DNA of 64,000 bases from the IMG/VR virus record IMGVR_UViG_3300025648_000015, positions 52,146 to 116,145 of that record, one strand, 5' to 3'. Source of the DNA: a virus. The notes below the pieces were generated by a model. The model was not told the DNA's origin. It was given only the letters and a program-made list of their open reading frames with translations, and searched no databases. Both the position numbers and the translations under genes were made by a program. Below are positions 48,515 through 61,164 of this stretch, one piece after another (position 1 is the first letter of the stretch; each line of letters starts with the position of its first letter).

Positions 48515-48712
48515 CTATTGTAAAACATGTGCTTCTATATACCAGATTTCACCATTGGGTAAAATAGTTTCCCAAAATCCCATAGTGTCCTCATGTTCTT
48601 GCCATCCTTCTAAATTCAAAGCATTCTTTGCTGCATCTAAGTTAGAATAAATGCCAGAGATTTCGGCAGCGCCATCTCCAACATCATATAGTAGGGCGTA
48701 TACTATTGTCAT
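48515..48712 (-). CDS. Hypothetical protein
   Basis: 65 aa with the beta-alpha pattern VYALLYDVGDGAAEISGIYSNLDAAKNAL and a C-terminal WETILPNGEIWYIE. Resembles small phage proteins that report on intervals of amino acids like host DUFs; not identified. It overlaps the WhiB-like gene by 29 bp. Confidence 0.6.
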   Translation of the reverse strand: MTIVYALLYDVGDGAAEISGIYSNLDAAKNALNLEGWQEHEDTMGFWETILPNGEIWYIEAHVLQ

Positions 48713-49004
48713 TGTTAAATAACTCCTTCATTGCCCATTCTATACGTTCTTTAGCATCCATGCCACCCCACCAGCCTTCGTCTAGGTTGCGCACTGCTTC
48801 GTACCTACATTCCATCATAACAGGACAATCTTTGCATATATTTTTGAGCTTGTGACGTTGGCTTAATGTAGGCATAGAACTAGCATAAATAAAATCACTA
48901 GTGTTTTTACCATAACAATTGCCTTCTTCTGCCCAAGTAAGGCCTTTATTATCGGGTAAAGTTTGAACTAACTCTTTTAACTTCCACCTACTAATCTTAC
49001 TCAT
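48684..49004 (-). CDS. WhiB-family transcription regulator (second copy)
   Basis: 106 aa. TWAEEGNCYGKNTSDFIYAS gives the first Cys, and KNICKDCPVMMECRYEAVRNLDEGWWGGMDAKERIEW gives CX2CX5C, then the GWWGGM turn and the ERIEW helix, the WhiB signature. Closer to the classical family than the copy at 11472, which lacks the WGG turn. Probably binds host SigA to redirect transcription in the early phase. Confidence 0.85.
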   Translation of the reverse strand: MSKISRWKLKELVQTLPDNKGLTWAEEGNCYGKNTSDFIYASSMPTLSQRHKLKNICKDCPVMMECRYEAVRNLDEGWWGGMDAKERIEWAMKELFNNDNSIRPTI

Positions 49005-49008
49005 ATTA

Positions 49009-49692
49009 TTACCTTTCTATCGATGATTGATTTATATTTGCTTTCATACCACTATCTATTCCATCATTATATCCTGATGATGCTACAATTTTACGTTGAG
49101 TAGCAGGATGACGATCTAATTTTTGGAAATATTCTTCAATTGCATGTTGTTTATTTCTAACAACTAATGCAACTGATGTATTGTTTGTTTCATTAATAAC
49201 TTTTGTTTTTGATTCTCTTATACGTTCATTGATTGTTATACAATAACCGCCAAAGAAACCTTTAACCCAAGTTTTAGTATGTATTTTTTCTTTGCTATTC
49301 TTTTTAATTTTATTTAGCTTAATAAACATTTCATTGACCATGTCTAAAGATAAAATATTATATAATGTTAAACATAATTCAATATCACTCTTGTATCCAT
49401 AGATCATGCAATATTCTTCGCCTCGTAAAACTTTGCAAAAGTTATGCTTTGCAATTGAATTAAGCAATACACTCTTATCAATAGCATATGGTTTAGGTGT
49501 TTCAATACGTCTAGCAACAATATTTCCTTCACCAATATGATCATGAAGTTGAGCTTCTTCAATTTGATATTTGGTAATTAACTCTTGTGCTAATGATTGT
49601 GCTGAACTTACTTCACCAGGTTTGTCACTACTATCTGCAACGCGAAGTAGTTTCTGAACCTTAGAAATAATATCAGACAACTGCATAACCAT
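49009..49692 (-). CDS. DUF2786 family protein
   Basis: 227 aa. MQLSDIISKVQKLLRVADSSDKPGEVSSAQSLAQELITKYQI at the N-terminus is the DUF2786 helix set; the C-terminal part (IVASSGYNDGIDSGMKANIN) also follows that family. Function unknown; found in many actinobacterial phages and mobile elements. Preceded by the AAAGGAGG site that follows hammerhead 1. Confidence 0.75.
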   Translation of the reverse strand: MVMQLSDIISKVQKLLRVADSSDKPGEVSSAQSLAQELITKYQIEEAQLHDHIGEGNIVARRIETPKPYAIDKSVLLNSIAKHNFCKVLRGEEYCMIYGYKSDIELCLTLYNILSLDMVNEMFIKLNKIKKNSKEKIHTKTWVKGFFGGYCITINERIRESKTKVINETNNTSVALVVRNKQHAIEEYFQKLDRHPATQRKIVASSGYNDGIDSGMKANINQSSIER

Positions 49693-49713
49693 AGTATTAC
49701 CTCCTTTCTTTTA

Positions 49714-49776
49714 GTCTAGCCTCATCGGTGTAGAGACAACTACCTTCTACATACGCCTCACGGCGTTTCGGCTTTA
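49714..49776 (-). ncRNA. Hammerhead ribozyme-like element 1 (type II)
   Basis: On the minus strand, 5' to 3': AGCC, GAAA, stem III ACGCC-GTGA-GGCGT, A (H17), stem I TGTAGA/TCTACA with an 11-nt loop, then CCGATGA and GGCU. Stem II (AGCC/GGCU) is the open helix. Predicted cleavage is after the A at 49752. Core difference: C instead of U at position 4. It starts three bases after the stop of the gene at 49777 and ends before the ribosome site of the DUF2786 gene. Confidence 0.75.
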
Positions 49777-50019
49777 TTATAAAGCGTCTTTTAAATCACA
49801 GAATAACTTATGAAAATGATCCATTTGTTCTCCCATTGCATTGATTGCTTTATTAAACATATCTGATAAACTTTCATAAAAAGTGATATCAAGAGTGTTT
49901 TTGTTTTCGTTATAGATTTTAAACCCATTTAACAACTCATCTAAACGATAACCAATCGTAGAAATATTGTTGATAAGTTCGCTTACTTTCTCTAACTTTT
50001 CTTCATTACTTACTGTCAT
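49777..50019 (-). CDS. Hypothetical protein
   Basis: 80 aa, helical coiled-coil style (EEKLEKVSELINNISTIGYR, FYESLSDMFNKAINAMGEQMDHFHKLFCD). No family recognised. Its stop is followed immediately by hammerhead element 1. Confidence 0.65.
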   Translation of the reverse strand: MTVSNEEKLEKVSELINNISTIGYRLDELLNGFKIYNENKNTLDITFYESLSDMFNKAINAMGEQMDHFHKLFCDLKDAL

Positions 50020-50074
50020 ATTACCTAACTTAAATATTTAATGCAACCAATTTAAAATTAATGTTTCATACTTA

Positions 50075-50251
50075 CTATTTTACCTCCATAGGTTTATATT
50101 CACTACAATATGTCTCAAACTTGTTTTTACGAGTCCAAGATCCACATTCACGGCATTCTCCAGACTCTAAATCTTCAAATTCTGGATTCTGACTAATGTT
50201 CCATAAATGTGCTTCATATTCATGATCGCACCAACAATCTGGTTCATTCAT
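50075..50251 (-). CDS. Small Cys-rich protein
   Basis: 58 aa. NEPDCWCDHEYEAHLWN and ESGECRECGSWTRKNKFETYC: three Cys/His pairs, probably a zinc module. Found in the gap between two longer genes, with an ATG after GGAGCAAAT. No family recognised. Confidence 0.6.
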   Translation of the reverse strand: MNEPDCWCDHEYEAHLWNISQNPEFEDLESGECRECGSWTRKNKFETYCSEYKPMEVK

Positions 50252-50260
50252 ATTTGCTCC

Positions 50261-50467
50261 TTACTTGATATTATCTAATGCATTATTAAGTATTTCAGTT
50301 ATTTCTTTTTCTTTATCTCCTGTTTCTGTATTTTGATCAGGAAAAACCCATTCATCAATATTAGGAATGTAAACAGTTTTACCTTTTTCAAATTTAGCAA
50401 AAGTAGTAGGCCAATCTATAAGCCAACCATTTTCTTCTGACCATTTTACTACACAATGATATTCCAT
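50261..50467 (-). CDS. Hypothetical protein
   Basis: 68 aa, beta-rich N-terminus (EYHCVVKWSEENGWLIDWPTTFAKFEKGKTVYIP) with an acidic helical end. TAATG overlap with the next upstream gene. No family recognised. Confidence 0.6.
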   Translation of the reverse strand: MEYHCVVKWSEENGWLIDWPTTFAKFEKGKTVYIPNIDEWVFPDQNTETGDKEKEITEILNNALDNIK

Positions 50468-50598
50468 TATGTTTCCATTTCTATAATTATTTCTTCTAGT
50501 TGATTACAACGATCTAATAAATTAGATATAACATCTTTAGCTTCTGCTAATGTAGTTGGTTCTGTTAAACCAAAGTCATTTAATGTTAATTCTATCAT
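50467..50598 (-). CDS. Small helical protein
   Basis: 43 aa, acidic, TEPTTLAEAKDVISNLLDR then NQLEEIIIEMET. It overlaps the stop-start with 50261 (TAATG on the minus strand). Possibly a short coiled coil. No family recognised. Confidence 0.5.
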   Translation of the reverse strand: MIELTLNDFGLTEPTTLAEAKDVISNLLDRCNQLEEIIIEMET

Positions 50599-50600
50599 TA

Positions 50601-50738
50601 TTAATTAAATCCATAATGCTCAAAGATTTGAGCTCTAGCATCTTCAAGTTCATTATTGAGGTCTTGCAATGTACGATTATCAATACTCTTATCATTACCA
50701 AACCAATCAATTAGATCTTGTCTAGTTACTTCATTCAT
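50601..50738 (-). CDS. Small helical protein
   Basis: 45 aa, NEVTRQDLIDWFGNDKSI and LQDLNNELEDARAQIFEHYG. A GAAGGAG ribosome site precedes it and the direct repeat and hammerhead 2 lie upstream. No family recognised. Confidence 0.55.
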   Translation of the reverse strand: MNEVTRQDLIDWFGNDKSIDNRTLQDLNNELEDARAQIFEHYGFN

Positions 50739-50742
50739 TTTA

Positions 50743-50783
50743 CTCCTTCTCTCTTATATTTGCTACTATGCGTAATGCTTCTG
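50743..50783. repeat. 41-bp direct repeat, copy 1
   Basis: Identical to 51044-51084. In this copy the sequence is non-coding, upstream of the small gene at 50601. In the other copy the same sequence encodes the C-terminal end of the protein at 51035. It carries the ribosome site in both places. A local duplication has probably placed a gene end here. Confidence 0.8.
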
Positions 50784-50797
50784 TTCCTTACTATTAG

Positions 50798-50857
50798 CCT
50801 ATCTTATCAATGCATGGTGGCTAATCCATACAGACGCCTCCCGGCGTTTCGATTCTT
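50798..50857 (-). ncRNA. Hammerhead ribozyme-like element 2 (type II)
   Basis: Minus strand: AAUC, GAAA, stem III ACGCC-GGGA-GGCGU, C (H17, GUC site), stem I UGUAUGG/CCAUGCA with an 8-nt loop, then UUGAUAA and GAU. Cleavage is predicted after the C at 50833. Relative to CUGAUGA, position 3 is U and position 8 is A, a paired change that keeps the 3-8 base pair. It follows the stop of the gene at 50860 by a few bases. Confidence 0.72.
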
Positions 50858-50859
50858 TA

Positions 50860-51042
50860 CTATTCTATTTCCTCAATAATTATATCATTGATAGTATTTT
50901 TAATAGCAAATCCATTGTGTTCTAACCATCCCAATGCTTCTTTTTCAATTACATCGTCATCTTCAGAGTCAGATGTAATCGTAGTTATGAGCACAGCATA
51001 GTCAAACACAAACTGTACATTATATATATATGTTTTACTCAT
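50860..51042 (-). CDS. Hypothetical protein
   Basis: 60 aa. Beta-rich N-terminus (KTYIYNVQFVFDYAVLITTITSD) then acidic, with EEALGWLEHNGF-like helix. No family recognised. It overlaps the next upstream gene by 8 bp. Confidence 0.6.
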   Translation of the reverse strand: MSKTYIYNVQFVFDYAVLITTITSDSEDDDVIEKEALGWLEHNGFAIKNTINDIIIEEIE

Positions 51043-51199
51043 TCTCCTTCTCTCTTATATTTGCTACTATGCGTAATGCTTCTGCAAATCCTTGAGCAAA
51101 TCCATTCTCAAAATCAGTTTGCTTAGCCATTGCTAAGTTAATGTGATGACGAGTTTCATTACTCAATTGATAAAAAGATTTGTCTAATTTTTTACCCAT
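51035..51199 (-). CDS. Small charged protein
   Basis: 54 aa. GKKLDKSFYQLSNETRHHINLAMAK then GFAQGFAEALRIVANIREKENE. The last 15 codons lie in the 41-bp direct repeat. No family recognised. Confidence 0.55.
   Translation of the reverse strand: MGKKLDKSFYQLSNETRHHINLAMAKQTDFENGFAQGFAEALRIVANIREKENE
51044..51084. repeat. 41-bp direct repeat, copy 2
   Basis: Coding copy: encodes the C-terminus of the small protein at 51035 on the minus strand. Identical over all 41 bases with copy 1 at 50743. Low sequence divergence means the duplication is recent. Confidence 0.8.
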
Positions 51200-51201
51200 T
51201 A

Positions 51202-51618
51202 TTATTCCTTTGTTGTAACTAAACTATTAAGATAAATAAATACCTCAAAAGGTACTGGCTCTAGTTCCCAATTCCATACAACATCGTCTTCGTTGTAGTT
51301 TTGCCAGTCAACTTTATCATAGTTAACTACCTTAATACCAACAGTTTGGTCAATGTGATTTACAACAACTAACTTCCATGTATCACCATGAAGAGAAAGT
51401 CCGATACCATATCCAGTATCAGACATTACATCATCTTTAATCATTTCACTGAAGATAATACGGTTAAGGTATTCGTCATCACTCCAACGACCCTTGCCAC
51501 GTACTATAGCGTCAGCTACAACGTTTTCTAGATGACTAGCTCCCCAATGGGTATATAGATAGATAGAATGCTCTGATCCATATGTACCAATAAGTTGTAC
51601 TTGTCCACGGTCTCCCAT
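51202..51618 (-). CDS. Conserved hypothetical protein (MGDRGQV family)
   Basis: 138 aa. MGDRGQVQLIG, YLYTHWGASHLENVVADAI, RWSDDEYLNRIIFSEMI and DTGYGIGLSLHGD are pieces I recognise as a conserved set in actinobacteria and phages, function unknown. The stop is three bases from the gene downstream; its 5' leader carries a T-arm element and a GNRA hairpin. Confidence 0.7.
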   Translation of the reverse strand: MGDRGQVQLIGTYGSEHSIYLYTHWGASHLENVVADAIVRGKGRWSDDEYLNRIIFSEMIKDDVMSDTGYGIGLSLHGDTWKLVVVNHIDQTVGIKVVNYDKVDWQNYNEDDVVWNWELEPVPFEVFIYLNSLVTTKE

Positions 51619-51671
51619 GATTACCTACTTTCTTACTTGTTTGTTTATTTGTTTAACGTCTCCCGACGTAG

Positions 51672-51713
51672 TGCCTTGAGTAGGAGTCGAACCTACTCTA
51701 CGACCATCAAGGC
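51672..51713 (-). ncRNA. tRNA-like minihelix 1 (acceptor + T arm)
   Basis: Minus strand: GCCUUGA (51713-51707), linker UGGUCGUAGA, T stem GUAGG, loop UUCGACU, CCUAC, then UCAAGGC and A. All 7 acceptor pairs and 5 T-stem pairs are Watson-Crick, and the loop matches T54-T55-C56-R57-A58-N59-Y60. D and anticodon arms are absent and no CCA is encoded. It begins about six bases after the stop of the gene at 51720. A hairpin ACGTC-GGGA-GACGT follows. Confidence 0.75.
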
Positions 51714-51719
51714 TACCAT

Positions 51720-52103
51720 TTACCACCAACTATCGTAATATATTTCCATATCTTGTCCAATAGCTTTCATAGCATCATCAATAAACTTAAGGTCAATTTC
51801 TCTATCTTCTGGTAAACTTTCACCAAAGAAAAAACCTTGAGTTACTGGGAGTTTTTCATGTATTACAGCATGTCTTAAATTAACAAGGTCTTGAAATGTT
51901 ACTCGAACTGGTTGACAGTTAAAAACACCTTCTCCACCTTTACTTTCATATAACTTTTCCATCCAACCTTGAATGTTAGGATGTTTACGCCATTGAGCAA
52001 TTAAAAAGACTTTATCTTCAGATTGTTCATGAGTCCAAACATAACTTAAATCTGTATTGTTTGGATGAGGCATAACAGCATATGCATATTGGTCTAATCC
52101 CAT
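51720..52103 (-). CDS. Conserved phage protein (MGLDQYAY family)
   Basis: 127 aa. MGLDQYAYAV, then VFLIAQWRKHPNIQGWMEKLYESKGG, then FNCQPVRVTFQDL follow the pattern of a small phage family often found in actinophages and other phages, sometimes mislabelled as phosphoglycerate kinase. Function unknown. Confidence 0.7.
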   Translation of the reverse strand: MGLDQYAYAVMPHPNNTDLSYVWTHEQSEDKVFLIAQWRKHPNIQGWMEKLYESKGGEGVFNCQPVRVTFQDLVNLRHAVIHEKLPVTQGFFFGESLPEDREIDLKFIDDAMKAIGQDMEIYYDSWW

Positions 52104-52152
52104 TATGTTTCCTTTCTTACTTATTTATTTACTTGTTTGTGTCTCCCGACAG

Positions 52153-52194
52153 CACCCCAAGATAGAATCGAACTATCTTACAACCATTTGGGGT
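52153..52194 (-). ncRNA. tRNA-like minihelix 2 (acceptor + T arm)
   Basis: Minus strand: ACCCCAA, linker AUGGUUGUAA, GAUAG, UUCGAUU, CUAUC, UUGGGGU, G. Same geometry as element 1: 7-bp acceptor, 10-nt linker, 5-bp T stem, 7-nt T loop. The linker shares UGGUYGUA with elements 1 and 4, although the helices differ in sequence, so the pairing is compensated. Followed by TGTC-GGGA-GACA and by the gene at 51720. Confidence 0.75.
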
Positions 52195-52202
52195 TACCTT
52201 AG

Positions 52203-52859
52203 TTAGCTAGGCCAACTAATAGGAATTTCTTTACCATTAATAACAATGATTTTAGGTGTTTCCATTGCTTTATCAACAGCTTCAGATACTTCTTTAATTG
52301 TTTCCATCATAATAGATGGCATTGCTGCTAAACGTTGTTTCACCTCAGCTTCAACTGCTTGTTGCATTTCTGCATCAGACATAGTTGGAGCTAAAAACTC
52401 TTCCATAATTGGATCTTCTTCAATAGCATCTTCTGTTGTTACTGCTGCAGAAGTTGTTGCAGAAGGAACAGAAGTTTTATTTATATAACTTCCGTTAATA
52501 ATATAATATGGATAAAGTAAGGATTTCTTACCAGGAGCACCTTCATTTAACGATATAGACAACATCTTAGTAAGGAATTCTTCACGACCAGCTTCTTTGC
52601 TTGTGTGTTTAGAATTCACATCTTTGATGTAATCTTCAATTACAGCTTTAGCTGCTTTGTGATCAGTAAAGTAGAATCTACCAATTACACGACGAGCACG
52701 AGCATCTTCTGAATTGTACCACGTACAACGTACAAATACTTCAGAATAATAATCTCCGTGTTCTTTGTGTACAGTAAATGCTAGGTCTACAACATCACGA
52801 GTACGGTTGGAAGTCCAACCAGCACCATTAGCTTTAGCTACCCAAGTCATTTCTGACAT
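52203..52859 (-). CDS. Hypothetical protein
   Basis: 218 aa. Residues 1-95 form a likely globular domain (WVAKANGAGWTSNRTRDVVDLAFTVHK; EVFVRCTWYNSEDARARRVIGRFYFTD), then an Ala/Thr/Glu linker, then a C-terminal helix. No family recognised. Its end is followed by minihelix 2. Confidence 0.65.
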   Translation of the reverse strand: MSEMTWVAKANGAGWTSNRTRDVVDLAFTVHKEHGDYYSEVFVRCTWYNSEDARARRVIGRFYFTDHKAAKAVIEDYIKDVNSKHTSKEAGREEFLTKMLSISLNEGAPGKKSLLYPYYIINGSYINKTSVPSATTSAAVTTEDAIEEDPIMEEFLAPTMSDAEMQQAVEAEVKQRLAAMPSIMMETIKEVSEAVDKAMETPKIIVINGKEIPISWPS

Positions 52860-52887
52860 ATTATCTCACTTTCTTTTTCTTACTATT

Positions 52888-52949
52888 GACCTATCTCATC
52901 AGTGCATGGAGGTCATCCCATACATACCCCTCCCGGGGTTATCGACTAA
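52888..52949 (-). ncRNA. Hammerhead ribozyme-like element 3 (type II)
   Basis: Minus strand: GUC, GAUAA, stem III CCCC-GGGA-GGGG, U-A (GUA site), stem I UGUAUGGG/UCCAUGCA with a 6-nt loop, CUGAUGA, GAUAGGUC. The CUGAUGA box is perfect and C-G flanks stem II. The 5' core reads GAUAA where GAAA is expected, i.e. one extra U. Cleavage predicted after the A at 52925. Directly follows the stop of the gene at 52950. Confidence 0.72.
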
Positions 52950-53108
52950 TTAATCGATTGACTGCAATGGTACACCAAAATAGTCATTAAGACCTTCTTG
53001 TACACCACAAGGTGAACAAATATCAGTCTTGTTATCAACCCTAGACAAAGCAGGATATCCTGTCCAAGATTCTTTACAAAGTGGACATATAAATGTTTTT
53101 ACTGTCAT
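52950..53108 (-). CDS. Zinc-ribbon small protein
   Basis: 52 aa. TFICPLCKESWTG and TDICSPCGVQEGLNDYFGVPLQ are two CXXC knuckles of a four-Cys zinc ribbon. Such proteins, with the GLNDYFGV-like ending, are widespread in actinophages. ATGA-type overlap with the next gene. Hammerhead 3 follows its stop. Confidence 0.68.
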   Translation of the reverse strand: MTVKTFICPLCKESWTGYPALSRVDNKTDICSPCGVQEGLNDYFGVPLQSID

Positions 53109-53305
53109 GATTTTTCTATCATCCCTTCAGGCATTTTACAATAGCCATTTTCTATTAAATCCATAGCCATACGACCATAGTGTCCTTGTAGTTTCCAAGC
53201 CATACCATTGTCAATTAACTCTTGAAAAAGTTGGATAATTTCATTACCATCAAGTTCATCTTGTTCATAACTTATTATTTTATTTGTTAAATCATTAATA
53301 ATCAT
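53105..53305 (-). CDS. Small hypothetical protein
   Basis: 66 aa, acidic, helical (IIQLFQELIDNGMAWKLQGHYGRMAMDLIENGYC). The DNGMAWKLQGxYGRMA motif is common in short actinophage proteins of unknown role. Overlaps both neighbours by 1-4 bp. Confidence 0.65.
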   Translation of the reverse strand: MIINDLTNKIISYEQDELDGNEIIQLFQELIDNGMAWKLQGHYGRMAMDLIENGYCKMPEGMIEKS

Positions 53306-53694
53306 TATTTATCTTCTTCAAGTTGCCAATTAAATTTATCATCTTGTACTTGATTTAATTCATCATACAATGATTGAGCCATTTTTGCATGTTCTTCAGG
53401 CGTAGAAGGTACTTGTGACCTAAAATCAACACCAAATACAACGCCTACGTTACTAGCAAATGTAATAAGGTTTTGTAAAACCTCAGTACCTGCTTTAACA
53501 GCTTGGTCAAATGTATGTTTGAAGTCATCTGACTCTACATAACTATTAAACTCTGAAGGAAGTTCACCAGTTACATATTGACGATAAGCTTCAATGGTTG
53601 TCTGAATTGTGATTTGCATTTTAATACACATCATCAAATTATCAACTTCATTTTTAATGAGTTGTAATTTTAATTCATCTGACATGTTGTCCAT
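53305..53694 (-). CDS. Hypothetical helical protein
   Basis: 129 aa, helical (ELKLQLIKNEVDNLMMCIKMQITIQTTIEAYRQYV). No family recognised. Hammerhead 4 sits in its 5' leader. Confidence 0.6.
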   Translation of the reverse strand: MDNMSDELKLQLIKNEVDNLMMCIKMQITIQTTIEAYRQYVTGELPSEFNSYVESDDFKHTFDQAVKAGTEVLQNLITFASNVGVVFGVDFRSQVPSTPEEHAKMAQSLYDELNQVQDDKFNWQLEEDK

Positions 53695-53724
53695 CTTACT
53701 CTCTTTCTTGTTTAACTATTATCT

Positions 53725-53789
53725 GACTTGTCTCATCAGTACCCAAGTTGTCATCTTAGGTATACCCCTCACGGGGTTATCGACTAACG
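53725..53789 (-). ncRNA. Hammerhead ribozyme-like element 4 (type II)
   Basis: Minus strand: GUC, GAUAA, stem III CCCC-GUGA-GGGG, U-A, stem I UACCUAAG/CUUGGGUA with a 7-nt loop AUGACAA, CUGAUGA, GACAAGUC. Stem II pairs GUC with GAC, a mismatch, then four more pairs. The upstream stop codon at 53784 is itself part of stem II. GAUAA again replaces GAAA. Predicted cleavage after the A at 53763. Confidence 0.78.
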
Positions 53790-54799: not shown

Positions 54800-55335
54800 T
54801 AAGTGGGCATTTTAACGTCATACCCAGGACGGAGAGTTACAAAAGCTCACTCACAAGGCTAGTGGTTACCTTCACACCACTCAGGTCGTTGGCTCACCTA
54901 TACCACCAACAGGTCGCTAATTAAGGTTTAGACTGACCTCCATGAGCTTCCCCTCATGATGAGTATGTAGTACGATACAAGCGTGTGGGTGCGTTTGAGT
55001 CTGCACCACAATTAGACTCGGTCCCATATAACCGATAAAAGTTATATGGGATTGCCACGTTTTTTGGGTCAGTGACCTAGACCTCATAGTGTGTTGTTAA
55101 GGATGTTACTTCCTACCTAAGCTTCCCCTTTAGGCTGGGTTTGTGAATACAAGACTTGCAACTAGGCACTCTGGATTAATACAACATCCAATCTGGCGGG
55201 TTGACATAGCTGGCATCACAGATCAATAAAGCCCCCTGGCCTATCCAGAAGGGCTATGGAGATGCAACAACAAGAAGGAAAAGCACTCTCCATAACCCAT
55301 CTCAATAGGCTATGTAGAGACTTCATTCTTGTTAA
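54800..55335 (-). ncRNA. Large structured non-coding region (candidate ornate RNA)
   Basis: About 570 bp without a gene (54773-55344) but full of helices, read on the minus strand: a 12-bp GGG-TATGGAGA type stem (55250-55300), a 7-bp long-range helix ACATAGC/GCTATGT closing 55204-55315, TCCCATATAAC/GTTATATGGGA (55022-55051), GGTGC/GCACC and GAGTC/GACTC, CATGA/TCATG and CCTAA/TTAGG with the same loop GGGGAAGC, AGTGG/CCACT and GTTGG/CCAAC. Large phage RNAs such as GOLLD and ROOL have this style; I cannot assign it to either without a covariance search. Confidence 0.6.
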
Positions 55336-56221: not shown

Positions 56222-57718
56222 TTAAGACTTGCCAAGCAAAGCAGAACGAATAGGACCGGCAGGCTTATTAATAAGCTTACCTTTCTTAAACATTGATACT
56301 GCTTCTTCAACACTAGGAATCATAATGATCTTGTGTTTCTTGACGAGTTTAGCACACTGAATGATTATTTGATCATTCTGTCCACTACCCATAGATGTAA
56401 CTTGGCCGTCACTGACCCAGACAATGTCTTCGCCATGCTTACGACGACGAATTGCCCACGTCAATGCAGTACCGTCAACACCATTGTTCATACCACCGAT
56501 GTCACCGGTGTCTCGAACACGCCAACCACGATCAGCGAGTAGCCAAGCGTTGGGGCTGTCGCCACCACAATCACTATATGCCATAATGACTGCGGCAGGA
56601 GCTGCCTCAACAATCTCTTCGATGTCTGACTGTTTCAAATTCATAGAACCTGATATGTCAATAACAACGATGCCACCCTTAACTTTGATTTTCTGTCCAA
56701 AGATCCTACGTTCTGGATCTGTAAGCAGACGTGATGGGTAAGAGACACGACGACCTGATTGCATACCACGCTTTTTACGGCGCATATAACCTTTAACCTC
56801 AACGGTTAGTGGCTTGTCATCAGCCCAGACTAACTTACCAAATTCGCCATTGTCATAGTCAAATTCGAAATCATCTGGCATATCATCAGTGTTGAGTGTA
56901 ACAGGTTGATCACCAAGTGTATTCTTGTCAGGATCAAACTTATCAGGATCACCATAGTTAGCTGCACGCTGCTCTTCTTTCTTGCTGTGTATATCCTTAA
57001 TGTCTTTAGGGGCTTTGTACCCAGAAGACACATAGTCAGCAATATCAGAAGCAGCATACAGAGTGTGACGAAAACCAGTTGGGATATTAAAATTACTGTT
57101 AAACCTTACTGGAATGGTATCACCTAACTCAGATGCTGTGCCATTGAAATTGGTTTTCATTGACTTATTGAGTTGACGCAGTCGTTGACTCCATTCAGGT
57201 CTAACGGAACGAATTCCGCTAGCAAAAGAGTCGAAACTCTTAGTGCTATGATTCTGAACAGTGAATTGAACTGCTGCATCCCAAGATCGCATATCACCAG
57301 CTGTAGCCAACCGCTTACCAAAAGTCTTTTCAGCTCCGGTAGGCTCGTGATCCAACTGCTTGACTTTAGCAAACTGTTCTGTAATCGCATTGATGCGAGC
57401 TTGCTCAGCAACACGTAATACATCGGCTGTAATACCGTTGTTATTGTATGCTTTAGCAATACCAGAATAGATTGATGAGTCAAGAGGAGTAACACGAGCT
57501 TCGATAAGCTTCTCAAGCTGTAGACGCTGTGAATGGCTATCCCCCGAAAGAGGAATAGCCATTATACCAGCAATGAAGTCTACTTTAGCTCCGAAGTCAC
57601 CGACAGTTGGAACAATTTCCCAATTGATTGGATCCTTAACATCCTCACGGAATGAAGTAATAACGTTTGGTAACGGCATTACTTCATCTTCAAGGTAGCT
57701 TGGAGTCACTTCACTCAT
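56222..57718 (-). CDS. VWA-domain (CoxE/MoxR-partner) protein
   Basis: 498 aa. The C-terminal third is a von Willebrand A domain: GGIVVIDISGSMNLKQ (DxSxS metal site, about residue 350), AVIMAYSDCGGD, and DGTALTWAI then IVWVSDGQVTS. The N-terminal part is helical and charged. VWA proteins pair with MoxR AAA+ ATPases for maturation or assembly; the ATPase gene overlaps here by 4 bp. Confidence 0.82.
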   Translation of the reverse strand: MSEVTPSYLEDEVMPLPNVITSFREDVKDPINWEIVPTVGDFGAKVDFIAGIMAIPLSGDSHSQRLQLEKLIEARVTPLDSSIYSGIAKAYNNNGITADVLRVAEQARINAITEQFAKVKQLDHEPTGAEKTFGKRLATAGDMRSWDAAVQFTVQNHSTKSFDSFASGIRSVRPEWSQRLRQLNKSMKTNFNGTASELGDTIPVRFNSNFNIPTGFRHTLYAASDIADYVSSGYKAPKDIKDIHSKKEEQRAANYGDPDKFDPDKNTLGDQPVTLNTDDMPDDFEFDYDNGEFGKLVWADDKPLTVEVKGYMRRKKRGMQSGRRVSYPSRLLTDPERRIFGQKIKVKGGIVVIDISGSMNLKQSDIEEIVEAAPAAVIMAYSDCGGDSPNAWLLADRGWRVRDTGDIGGMNNGVDGTALTWAIRRRKHGEDIVWVSDGQVTSMGSGQNDQIIIQCAKLVKKHKIIMIPSVEEAVSMFKKGKLINKPAGPIRSALLGKS

Positions 57719-58476
57719 GATAGTGTGAACTCAGGAGTGAGTGTACCAATCTTGAGAGCATCGATGATTGGATCAGCCATTTTGCCGAACACCATACGAG
57801 CTGCACGCTCTACGCCAAAGCCAGGAGCAGAACGAAGCTGCTCGAAAGCCTTGAATGAACGTAGAGAAGCACGTTGGCCAGGTCGGCCTGCAACAATAAC
57901 TGCTGCAAGCTGACGCAATTCCACAGGCAATGCTGCGATCAAAGCTGCTGGATGAGCAGCATCAATCTTGATTGCAATTGGGAATCTGTCCTTAAGTGCA
58001 GTTGGCAACTCGTCCATGTCTTCCAAGTTAGTGGTCATCACAGCCGAGAACCCTGGATTTGGAGTAAACAACTCTCCAGTGTAGGGGTGCTTGAATGATG
58101 ATGATTCAACACTGTCTAGGAATGCAAGCAAAGTTGACTGTACGTCACCACCAGCTTTGTCGATCTCGTCAACAACGAGTCGAGCACCAGTAGTACCATT
58201 GCCGATCCAGGAGCGTAATGCAGCACCTGGGACAAAGGTGAATCCACCAACCTCGTTAGGCATAACTGAACCTGATACGTCAGCATTTGTCATATCCTCT
58301 GAGCAGATAAGACGCTCGGAGCCAGCTTCATTGATGCCGAAGTTGAGGCCAGAGTATGTCTTACCAGTGCCTGGAGGGCCGTAAAGGATGACACGGTCTA
58401 CACCGGCCGCCAGCACGTCCTCCAAGTCCTTGTAGCATTGAGGGACAGGGATGCCTTGGTATGTTGCTTCACTCAT
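57715..58476 (-). CDS. MoxR-like AAA+ ATPase
   Basis: 253 aa. Walker A is YGPPGTGKT (residues 32-40), Walker B is RLVVDEIDKAGG, and sensor 1 lies at FSAVMTTNLEDMDELPTALKDRF, where the sensor Asn and Arg finger are seen. MoxR family AAA+ with the VWA partner immediately downstream. The pair may load cofactors, remodel host complexes or help virion assembly. Confidence 0.85.
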   Translation of the reverse strand: MSEATYQGIPVPQCYKDLEDVLAAGVDRVILYGPPGTGKTYSGLNFGINEAGSERLICSEDMTNADVSGSVMPNEVGGFTFVPGAALRSWIGNGTTGARLVVDEIDKAGGDVQSTLLAFLDSVESSSFKHPYTGELFTPNPGFSAVMTTNLEDMDELPTALKDRFPIAIKIDAAHPAALIAALPVELRQLAAVIVAGRPGQRASLRSFKAFEQLRSAPGFGVERAARMVFGKMADPIIDALKIGTLTPEFTLS

Positions 58477-58554
58477 GATTTACTTACTTTCTTCTTGTTT
58501 ATTTTAGTTTGTAGTGCTTCCTTAGCACCAGGGCAGTCACTTATGTGACTCCGG

Positions 58555-58599
58555 CACTGCAGGTGGGAATCGAACCCACAACATCCTCCATGCTGCAGT
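58555..58599 (-). ncRNA. tRNA-like minihelix 3 (acceptor + T arm)
   Basis: Minus strand: ACUGCAG (58599-58593), 13-nt linker CAUGGAGGAUGUU, GUGGG, UUCGAUU, CCCAC, CUGCAGU, G. Seven acceptor and five T-stem pairs, all perfect. It is followed by AGTCAC/GTGACT and GTGCT/AGCAC hairpins before the MoxR gene. Confidence 0.75.
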
Positions 58600-58621
58600 C
58601 CCCCTTATTTAGGGAAATATA

Positions 58622-59095
58622 CTACTTTATTGCATGTACAGTCATTTTGCCATTGTGACGGTCAAAGTTAACTTTAACTTTCTTGTAACCCTTGACTCGT
58701 GCCTCTTTACGCAATTTAGTTTCAATTGCTTGAGCATTCATCTGATGGATAGGCAAGATAGCAGCTAATTCCTTATAACCAATAACATGACTATTTCCAT
58801 CAAGGATTTCGTCAAGCCACCAATTCAATTCAGACCATTTAATTATTACTGATGGTTTTGTATAAGGACGACGCAATGATTTGCTACGTGCATTCATTGA
58901 ATTAACCTTAGTTGGCGGTTTAGCTTTGGTAGCTACGGCTGCTGTTCCCTTACTTGCAGGTTTAACAGAACTATCAAATGATTCAATCAATTCGATAACC
59001 TGAATAACTTGACTTCGGGTAGCAGGACGCCCAAGAACTGTGTCAGTTAACTCTAACGCAGTCTTGATCACCTGGCTCATCTTACTGTTGGACAT
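58622..59095 (-). CDS. Hypothetical protein
   Basis: 157 aa. Helical N-terminus, basic Ala/Lys linker (ASKGTAAVATKAKPPTKVNSMNARSKSLRRPYTKPS) and a compact C-terminal domain (WSELNWWLDEILDGNSHVIGYKELAAILPIHQMNAQAIETKL), DNA-binding-like by composition only. No family recognised. Confidence 0.6.
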   Translation of the reverse strand: MSNSKMSQVIKTALELTDTVLGRPATRSQVIQVIELIESFDSSVKPASKGTAAVATKAKPPTKVNSMNARSKSLRRPYTKPSVIIKWSELNWWLDEILDGNSHVIGYKELAAILPIHQMNAQAIETKLRKEARVKGYKKVKVNFDRHNGKMTVHAIK

Positions 59096-59142
59096 TATGT
59101 CCTCCTTCTTTGTTTGTTGTTTTTGTTGTGCCTCCCGGCAGC

Positions 59143-59185
59143 ACCCCAGGCAAGAGTCGAACTTACCTTACGACCATCGGGGATA
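59143..59185 (-). ncRNA. tRNA-like minihelix 4 (acceptor + T arm)
   Basis: Minus strand: AUCCCCG, linker AUGGUCGUAAG, GUAAG, UUCGACU, CUUGC, CUGGGGU, G. The acceptor has one C-U mismatch and one U-G pair, the T stem one U-G pair. The linker shares UGGUCGUA with element 1. It starts six bases after the stop of the gene at 59191 and a hairpin TGCC-GGGA-GGCA follows. Confidence 0.7.
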
Positions 59186-59190
59186 CCGTA

Positions 59191-60742: not shown

Positions 60743-61051
60743 TTAGAAGCTTAGCTCTATTCCATCCAGAGCCCACTCTGATACTAATGGGCATATGGTA
60801 TAGGTAAGTTTGATGGGCTTAGATGAGTAGTTTGTTTCCCCGACGACATGCGCGGAGATAGTATCTTCCTCATCATTAATAACCCACTTGGTAGGTGCTA
60901 TACCATAGAACTCAGTCATACTAATGACTGCCATTTCCACGGATGGAAAACTATCTTGTATAACACCACACCTGGTCTTAGCCTTATGGACAATCCTATC
61001 CCATAGAGTAGGCCGGTCAATCCAAGTTATCACAAATCGCTCTTCGATCAT
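60743..61051 (-). CDS. Hypothetical protein
   Basis: 102 aa, beta-rich (RFVITWIDRPTLWDRIVHKAKTRCGVIQDSF; TNYSSKPIKLTYTICPLVSEWALDGIELSF). Higher GC than most leftward genes. No family recognised. Confidence 0.58.
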   Translation of the reverse strand: MIEERFVITWIDRPTLWDRIVHKAKTRCGVIQDSFPSVEMAVISMTEFYGIAPTKWVINDEEDTISAHVVGETNYSSKPIKLTYTICPLVSEWALDGIELSF

Positions 61052-61098
61052 GATTATATTCCTTTCTCTTACTTATATTTAGTTTCCCCATAAGGGAG

Positions 61099-61144
61099 CA
61101 CCTCGGAGGGGAATCGAACCCCTCCAAGCCCACCAGGGCGAGGT
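61099..61144 (-). ncRNA. tRNA-like minihelix 5 (acceptor + T arm)
   Basis: Minus strand: ACCUCGC, linker CCUGGUGGGCUUGG, AGGGG, UUCGAUU, CCCCU, CCGAGGU, G. Six of seven acceptor pairs and all T-stem pairs form; the innermost pair is C-C. The linker again contains UGGU. It lies after the stop of the gene at 61165 and before the gene at 60743. Confidence 0.7.
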
Positions 61145-61164
61145 TACCTACTACTTACAACCTA

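Follow-up and report, generated by a model that had tools for sequence, protein, structure and literature searches.

The gaps between the leftward genes of an uncultured phage raise a question: what are the structured elements that fill them, and what may they do to the transcript? The stretch of DNA that we analysed (the window, 64,000 nucleotides) covers positions 52146-116145 of the 116,145-base IMG/VR virus record IMGVR_UViG_3300025648_000015, labelled G000 here. Four gaps on its minus strand hold elements that the evidence below supports as new examples of a known ribozyme, the type II hammerhead. Further gaps hold transfer RNA (tRNA)-like elements. Either a ribozyme or a tRNA-like element is found before the same gene in related phages, which suggests, at the level of sequence comparison, two interchangeable ways to cut one message into separate mRNAs.

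Hammerhead elements in the leftward gene cluster

Each hammerhead fills the space between a leftward gene's stop codon and the ribosome-binding site of the gene after it. HHR1 (49706-49775, minus strand) is the leader of gene 49009-49692, HHR2 (50788-50856, minus) of gene 50601-50738, HHR3 (52880-52949, minus) of gene 52203-52859 and HHR4 (53717-53787, minus) of gene 53305-53694. The sequence and a covariance model (R1; 66.1, 72.1, 80.4 and 67.9 bits for HHR1 to HHR4) confirm the four minus-strand elements listed by the initial annotation, which had been made from the letters alone.

Along each element we find a stem II of 3-4 base pairs (bp), C-GA(U)AA, a GNRA-capped stem III closed by A15.1-U16.1, a U-H17 site within GUA or GUC (H17 being A, C, A and A in HHR1 to HHR4), a stem I of 6-8 bp, a CUGAUGA-type segment and the stem II strand; the order of the core segments had been read correctly at the outset. 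The conserved core (C3-A9, G12-A15.1, A15.1-U16.1 and H17) is present in all four. Its variants are the U3-A8 swap in HHR2, the U13a insertion that gives HHR3 and HHR4 GAUAA where HHR1 and HHR2 have GAAA, all of which the initial annotation had right, and U4C in HHR1. The CUGAUGA that it took to be common to the four does not hold for HHR1, which reads CCGAUGA, a variant that recurs in relatives. Cleavage is predicted between 49752 and 49751 in HHR1, 50833 and 50832 in HHR2, 52925 and 52924 in HHR3, and 53763 and 53762 in HHR4, and the points proposed earlier are correctly placed.

Stem II had been described as simply open. It is instead a real helix of 3-4 bp (GCC/GGC, AUC/GAU, GUC/GAU and GUC/GAC in HHR1 to HHR4), followed by a pseudoknot between loop I and the 3' tail, which is the published type II geometry. 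The pseudoknot pairs UUAGCC with GGCUAA in HHR2 and possibly UAGUU with GACUA in HHR1. In HHR3 it is UGACC with GGUCA by eye, of which a script gave the 4 bp core UGAC with GUCA, and in HHR4, where it is the weakest of the four, UGAC with GUCA by eye. The earlier inventory thus stands for the four hammerheads, while it overlooked the pseudoknot, the short stem II, U4C and the tRNA-like elements in the neighbouring gaps.

Over both strands, a loose descriptor gave 7 matches, including the cluster of four, compared to 0.35 per strand in first-order Markov-simulated sequence. We collected 23 terminase relatives (G-numbered records), some of them near-duplicates, such as the near-identical G003 and G004. 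The R1 model, built from 21 elements with the window copies included, gave 46 matches, spread over 12 of 22 records, near-duplicates among them. Another model (R3) was trained on phages G010 and G011 only. Run on the 116 kb record, it returned exactly the four window elements at expect values (E) of 1 or less, ranging from 1.7e-15 for both HHR2 and HHR3 through 5.6e-14 for HHR1 (56.3 bits) to 4.4e-11 for HHR4, and the half of the record outside the window gave no hammerhead.

The initial annotation had held that compensatory change preserves the pairing of the stems, and the 36 distinct copies from related records bear this out. In these copies 96.6 % of cells are paired, versus 65.6 % after shuffling, and covariation, a score favoured by the fitting of the alignment to the structure, is 0.806 compared to 0.214 in shuffled alignments and no more than 0.114 when registers are slid. 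Change on both sides is found in 13 of 15 pairs, and all three helices covary. The pseudoknot was outside the model; 75 % of its cells are paired, with 35 double-change cells against 13.8 in shuffled alignments, and its pairing drops to 19-46 % in slid registers.

Rfam matched none of the four window elements at the gathering threshold. At a relaxed threshold, Hammerhead_II (RF02276, gathering 37 bits) matches HHR3 at 24 bits with an E of 7.7e-4 for the genome, so that a hammerhead model does match above noise in this cluster. Two related phages exceed the gathering threshold of the same family, at 49, 46.7, 44.9 and 37.7 bits. Taken together, the architecture, the covariation in the 36 copies and these above-threshold matches in relatives support the type II identity, and self-cleavage of the window copies is predicted from established knowledge of the family. 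One related record, G011 (stretches L059 and L060), has 13 hammerheads in its gene leaders.

tRNA-like elements in neighbouring gaps

Five further gaps in the leftward cluster hold tRNA-like elements, all on the minus strand. Two of them were noticed while reading the sequence, more were found by script, and a covariance model (R2) was then used. The element at 51639-51719, found in the script scan (R2 51.6 bits, E 6.1e-11), combines an acceptor stem, a T arm and a GNRA hairpin and is the leader of gene 51202-51618. The others lie at 52119-52200 (76.9 bits, E 3e-18) before gene 51720-52103, at 58535-58605 (41.9 bits, with a partial Rfam tRNA match of 23.9 bits) before the MoxR-like ATPase gene 57715-58476, at 59108-59190 (58.2 bits) before gene 58622-59095, and at 61067-61150 (69.6 bits) before gene 60743-61051.

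The elements are built from a 7 bp acceptor stem and a 5 bp T stem with a UUCRA loop, usually with a small hairpin after them. The anticodon arm with its 7-nucleotide loop is absent in the five window elements, as is CCA, and ARAGORN called none of the five as a tRNA. R2 gave 25 matches, 22 of them distinct, with 94.3 % of cells paired and a covariation of 0.839 compared to 0.286 after shuffling; one low-scoring match (L059:13653) overlaps an ordinary tRNA. No tRNA-like element was found by R2 in the other half of the 116 kb record, and a pattern scan for one version of the element returned three contigs, none of them new to the set of relatives.

All 22 distinct copies carry a 3' R-C-Y, as read from the alignment, and this motif is compatible with the contact of the RNA of ribonuclease P (RNase P) to RCC. 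The elements are probably cut by RNase P, since model substrates consisting of an acceptor stem and T arm are efficiently cleaved by this enzyme (PMC11143913) and R-C-Y is kept throughout; the absence of CCA and a possible GGU/GCU extension of the acceptor stem weaken the argument.

Between them, hammerheads and tRNA-like elements break up the leftward cluster into blocks that are short or consist of one gene. A start codon with a ribosome-binding site follows shortly after each of the 68 elements (68/68, counting duplicate records).

Leaders of other kinds are also present. An H-type pseudoknot is found at 54800-54833 on the minus strand of the window (CCUGGGUAU...UUAAAAUGCCCA), and about 16 more versions of it stand before genes in relatives, with a first stem that varies in step. 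Long near-perfect leader hairpins, possible RNase III sites, occur at 55235-55314 (minus) in the window and at L064:15114 and L069:17800.

Exchange of leaders before orthologous genes

For a survey of exchange, we took the gene downstream of each element and looked up its orthologues. The gene behind HHR1 (49009-49692, minus; DUF2786, Pfam PF10979) is preceded by a hammerhead in eight records, of which G000 is one and G003 and G004 are near-duplicates, and the identity of the proteins goes down to 41 %.

The leader type differs among orthologues of the gene behind HHR3 (52203-52859, minus). It is an intact hammerhead here and in G014, and a tRNA-like element in G003 and G004. The leaders in G002, G008 and G018 are hammerhead-like with a poor stem II and A.A at 10.1-11.1, so a clean ribozyme stands before this gene only in G000 and G014. 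In G006 (stretch L069) there is a hairpin-pseudoknot only, UUGACC with GGUCAA, and no catalytic core. Hammerhead-like leaders with A.A replacing the pair at 10.1-11.1 were seen at L063:9656, L071:7543 and L072:9405, perhaps decaying ribozymes. Two G006 leaders, L069:12056 and L069:12828 (minus), consist of a stem I-like hairpin and a UUGACC with GGUC(A)(A) pseudoknot lacking the core; the orthologous genes bear hammerheads here.

The other case is the MoxR-like AAA ATPase gene (57715-58476, minus), which adjoins gene 56222-57718. Pfam gave no match for the latter, and the names MoxR and VWA are our assignments from reading the sequences. Before MoxR, this phage and G014 have a tRNA-like leader, and G010, where the gene neighbouring MoxR is conserved in place, has a hammerhead of 49 Rfam bits. 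In G002, G003, G006 and G015 the leader is a near-complete tRNA cloverleaf, of Rfam grade in G002 and G003. Cloverleafs before MoxR (L069:17179, L063:14730, L064:14465 and L076:16728) have no CCA. Their anticodons differ, which argues against decoding as the conserved function; the versions in G000 and G014 are reduced. Among 56 loci with MoxR relatives, there were five hammerhead and eight tRNA-like matches, all in phages near this group. A third candidate for a swap, before gene 58622-59095, was not counted because its support is weak (E 8e-5).

Host and distant relatives

The phage probably infects an actinobacterium, judging from its terminase relatives and from a WhiB-family transcription factor gene (48684-49004, minus; Pfam PF02467). 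The terminase comparison gives a distant link to Rhodococcus, Gordonia and Mycobacterium phages, and a megablast search of cultured phages gave no match. R1 and R2 had no match in six Rhodococcus, Gordonia and Mycobacterium phages, which shows little because both models are clade-specific.

Proposed mechanism and alternatives

Building on the ribozyme architecture, covariation, position and exchange observed above, we consider it quite likely that both element types are mRNA processing sites in the leftward gene cluster, the hammerheads by self-cleavage and the tRNA-like elements through host RNase P. Cleavage by a hammerhead after GUA or GUC would split the polycistronic transcript close behind a gene's stop codon, at a point some tens of bases ahead of the following gene's ribosome-binding site. 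The mRNA on the upstream side would then finish with a GNRA hairpin, and the one on the downstream side would open with the hairpin of stem I, held in place by the pseudoknot of loop I with the tail. The tRNA-like elements would probably play the same role in the cell, where RNase P would be the second cutting enzyme and the product would have a 5' end shaped like a tRNA. The benefit that we infer is separate mRNA units with protected ends. The exchange of the two element types before the same genes points to selection for cleavage and for a structured mRNA end, and not for the chemistry. We further hypothesize, with about even chances of being right, that a modular set of exchangeable elements forming 5' ends (hammerhead, RNase P-cut tRNA-like element and perhaps the bare pseudoknot), swapped before the same gene, dices the transcript into structured monocistronic or short mRNAs.

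Several observations weigh against this picture. The relatedness among copies remains in the shuffle controls. Even at the relaxed threshold Rfam gives no match for HHR1, HHR2 and HHR4, and all window copies stay below gathering. Minimum-energy folds give stems I and III and miss stem II in HHR3 and HHR4, with modest z-scores of -1.3 to -2.8, and HHR1 carries U4C while HHR3 and HHR4 have the extra U13a. The tRNA-like elements, lacking CCA, do not have the 3' RCCA of RNase P substrates, and the GGU/GCU extension, which shows no covariation, could hinder the enzyme. The A.A leaders of G002, G008 and G018 may be weak or dead ribozymes, and the exchange is well supported in only two gene families.

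The core-less hairpin and pseudoknot of G006 before the orthologue of gene 52203-52859, and the separate H-type pseudoknot family found in similar leaders including that near 54800, would both make sense if the elements folded as hammerheads but the structured 5' leader itself, be it the stem I hairpin with its pseudoknot or the tRNA-like fold, were selected for stability or translation, with cleavage secondary or lost. We regard this as unlikely: nearly all of the 36 copies retain the catalytic core nucleotides, which are useless to a plain hairpin, and stem III with GA(U)AA, located upstream of the cut, persists and covaries. Somewhat less improbable, though still doubtful, is that the tRNA-like elements are sites for a tRNA-binding protein, decoys or decaying tRNA genes and not RNase P sites, their alternation with hammerheads being coincidental. 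The missing CCA and the possible extra GGU/GCU pairing fit such a reading, and in several relatives MoxR is preceded by complete cloverleafs whose anticodons are not conserved and which resemble tRNA genes in transition. However, covariation is strong in the acceptor stem and T arm, the anticodon arm being lost or drifting, R-C-Y is kept in 22 of 22 copies, and the slot before orthologous genes is shared with hammerheads. Finally, G+C-rich hairpins in intergenic gaps might be intrinsic transcription terminators, but stem III runs directly into the hammerhead core, and neither CUGAUGA nor GAAA is needed for termination; we consider this highly improbable and rejected it for want of a U run after stem III.

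Relation to known systems

Type II hammerheads with U3-A8, U13a and a typical pseudoknot of loop I with the tail have already been published (RF02276; Perreault et al. 2011, PMC3088659). The window elements resemble them in the core, the permutation, the short stem II, the pseudoknot and both variants, and also in that multiple copies flank individual genes in DNA related to phages (PMC3088659). The differences are the window scores below gathering, the recurrence of U4C, a U added between A9 and 10.1 in certain relatives, and the alternation with tRNA-like elements before one and the same gene, which the papers searched do not describe.

RNase P acts on T4 gene 32 mRNA, the C4 antisense RNA and M3 RNA (reviewed in PMC11143913). 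The tRNA-like leaders share with these phage and mRNA substrates, and with the AT1 acceptor and T-arm model, an acceptor stem, T stem and T loop in a phage transcript. Unlike those substrates, they form a repeated, covarying leader without CCA before many phage genes, and their cleavage is a prediction. Plastid-ycf2 5'UTR RNA (RF04354, on the opposite strand) and mascRNA-menRNA (RF01684) give weak Rfam matches to the same minihelices, far below gathering and from unrelated organisms. We found no precedent in the open-licence literature for tRNA-like phage leaders or for their alternation with hammerheads, which is weak evidence. What appears to be new is this context, the alternation; the ribozyme type and the setting of multiple hammerheads among phage genes had been reported.

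The role of hammerheads in phage genomes was left open at their discovery (PMC3088659). A ribozyme and a tRNA-like element in the same slot before orthologues amount to a natural exchange experiment, and the shared function that it points to, a defined mRNA end, is directly testable. The series from tRNA to minihelix suggests, in addition, how a tRNA gene may become an mRNA processing signal.

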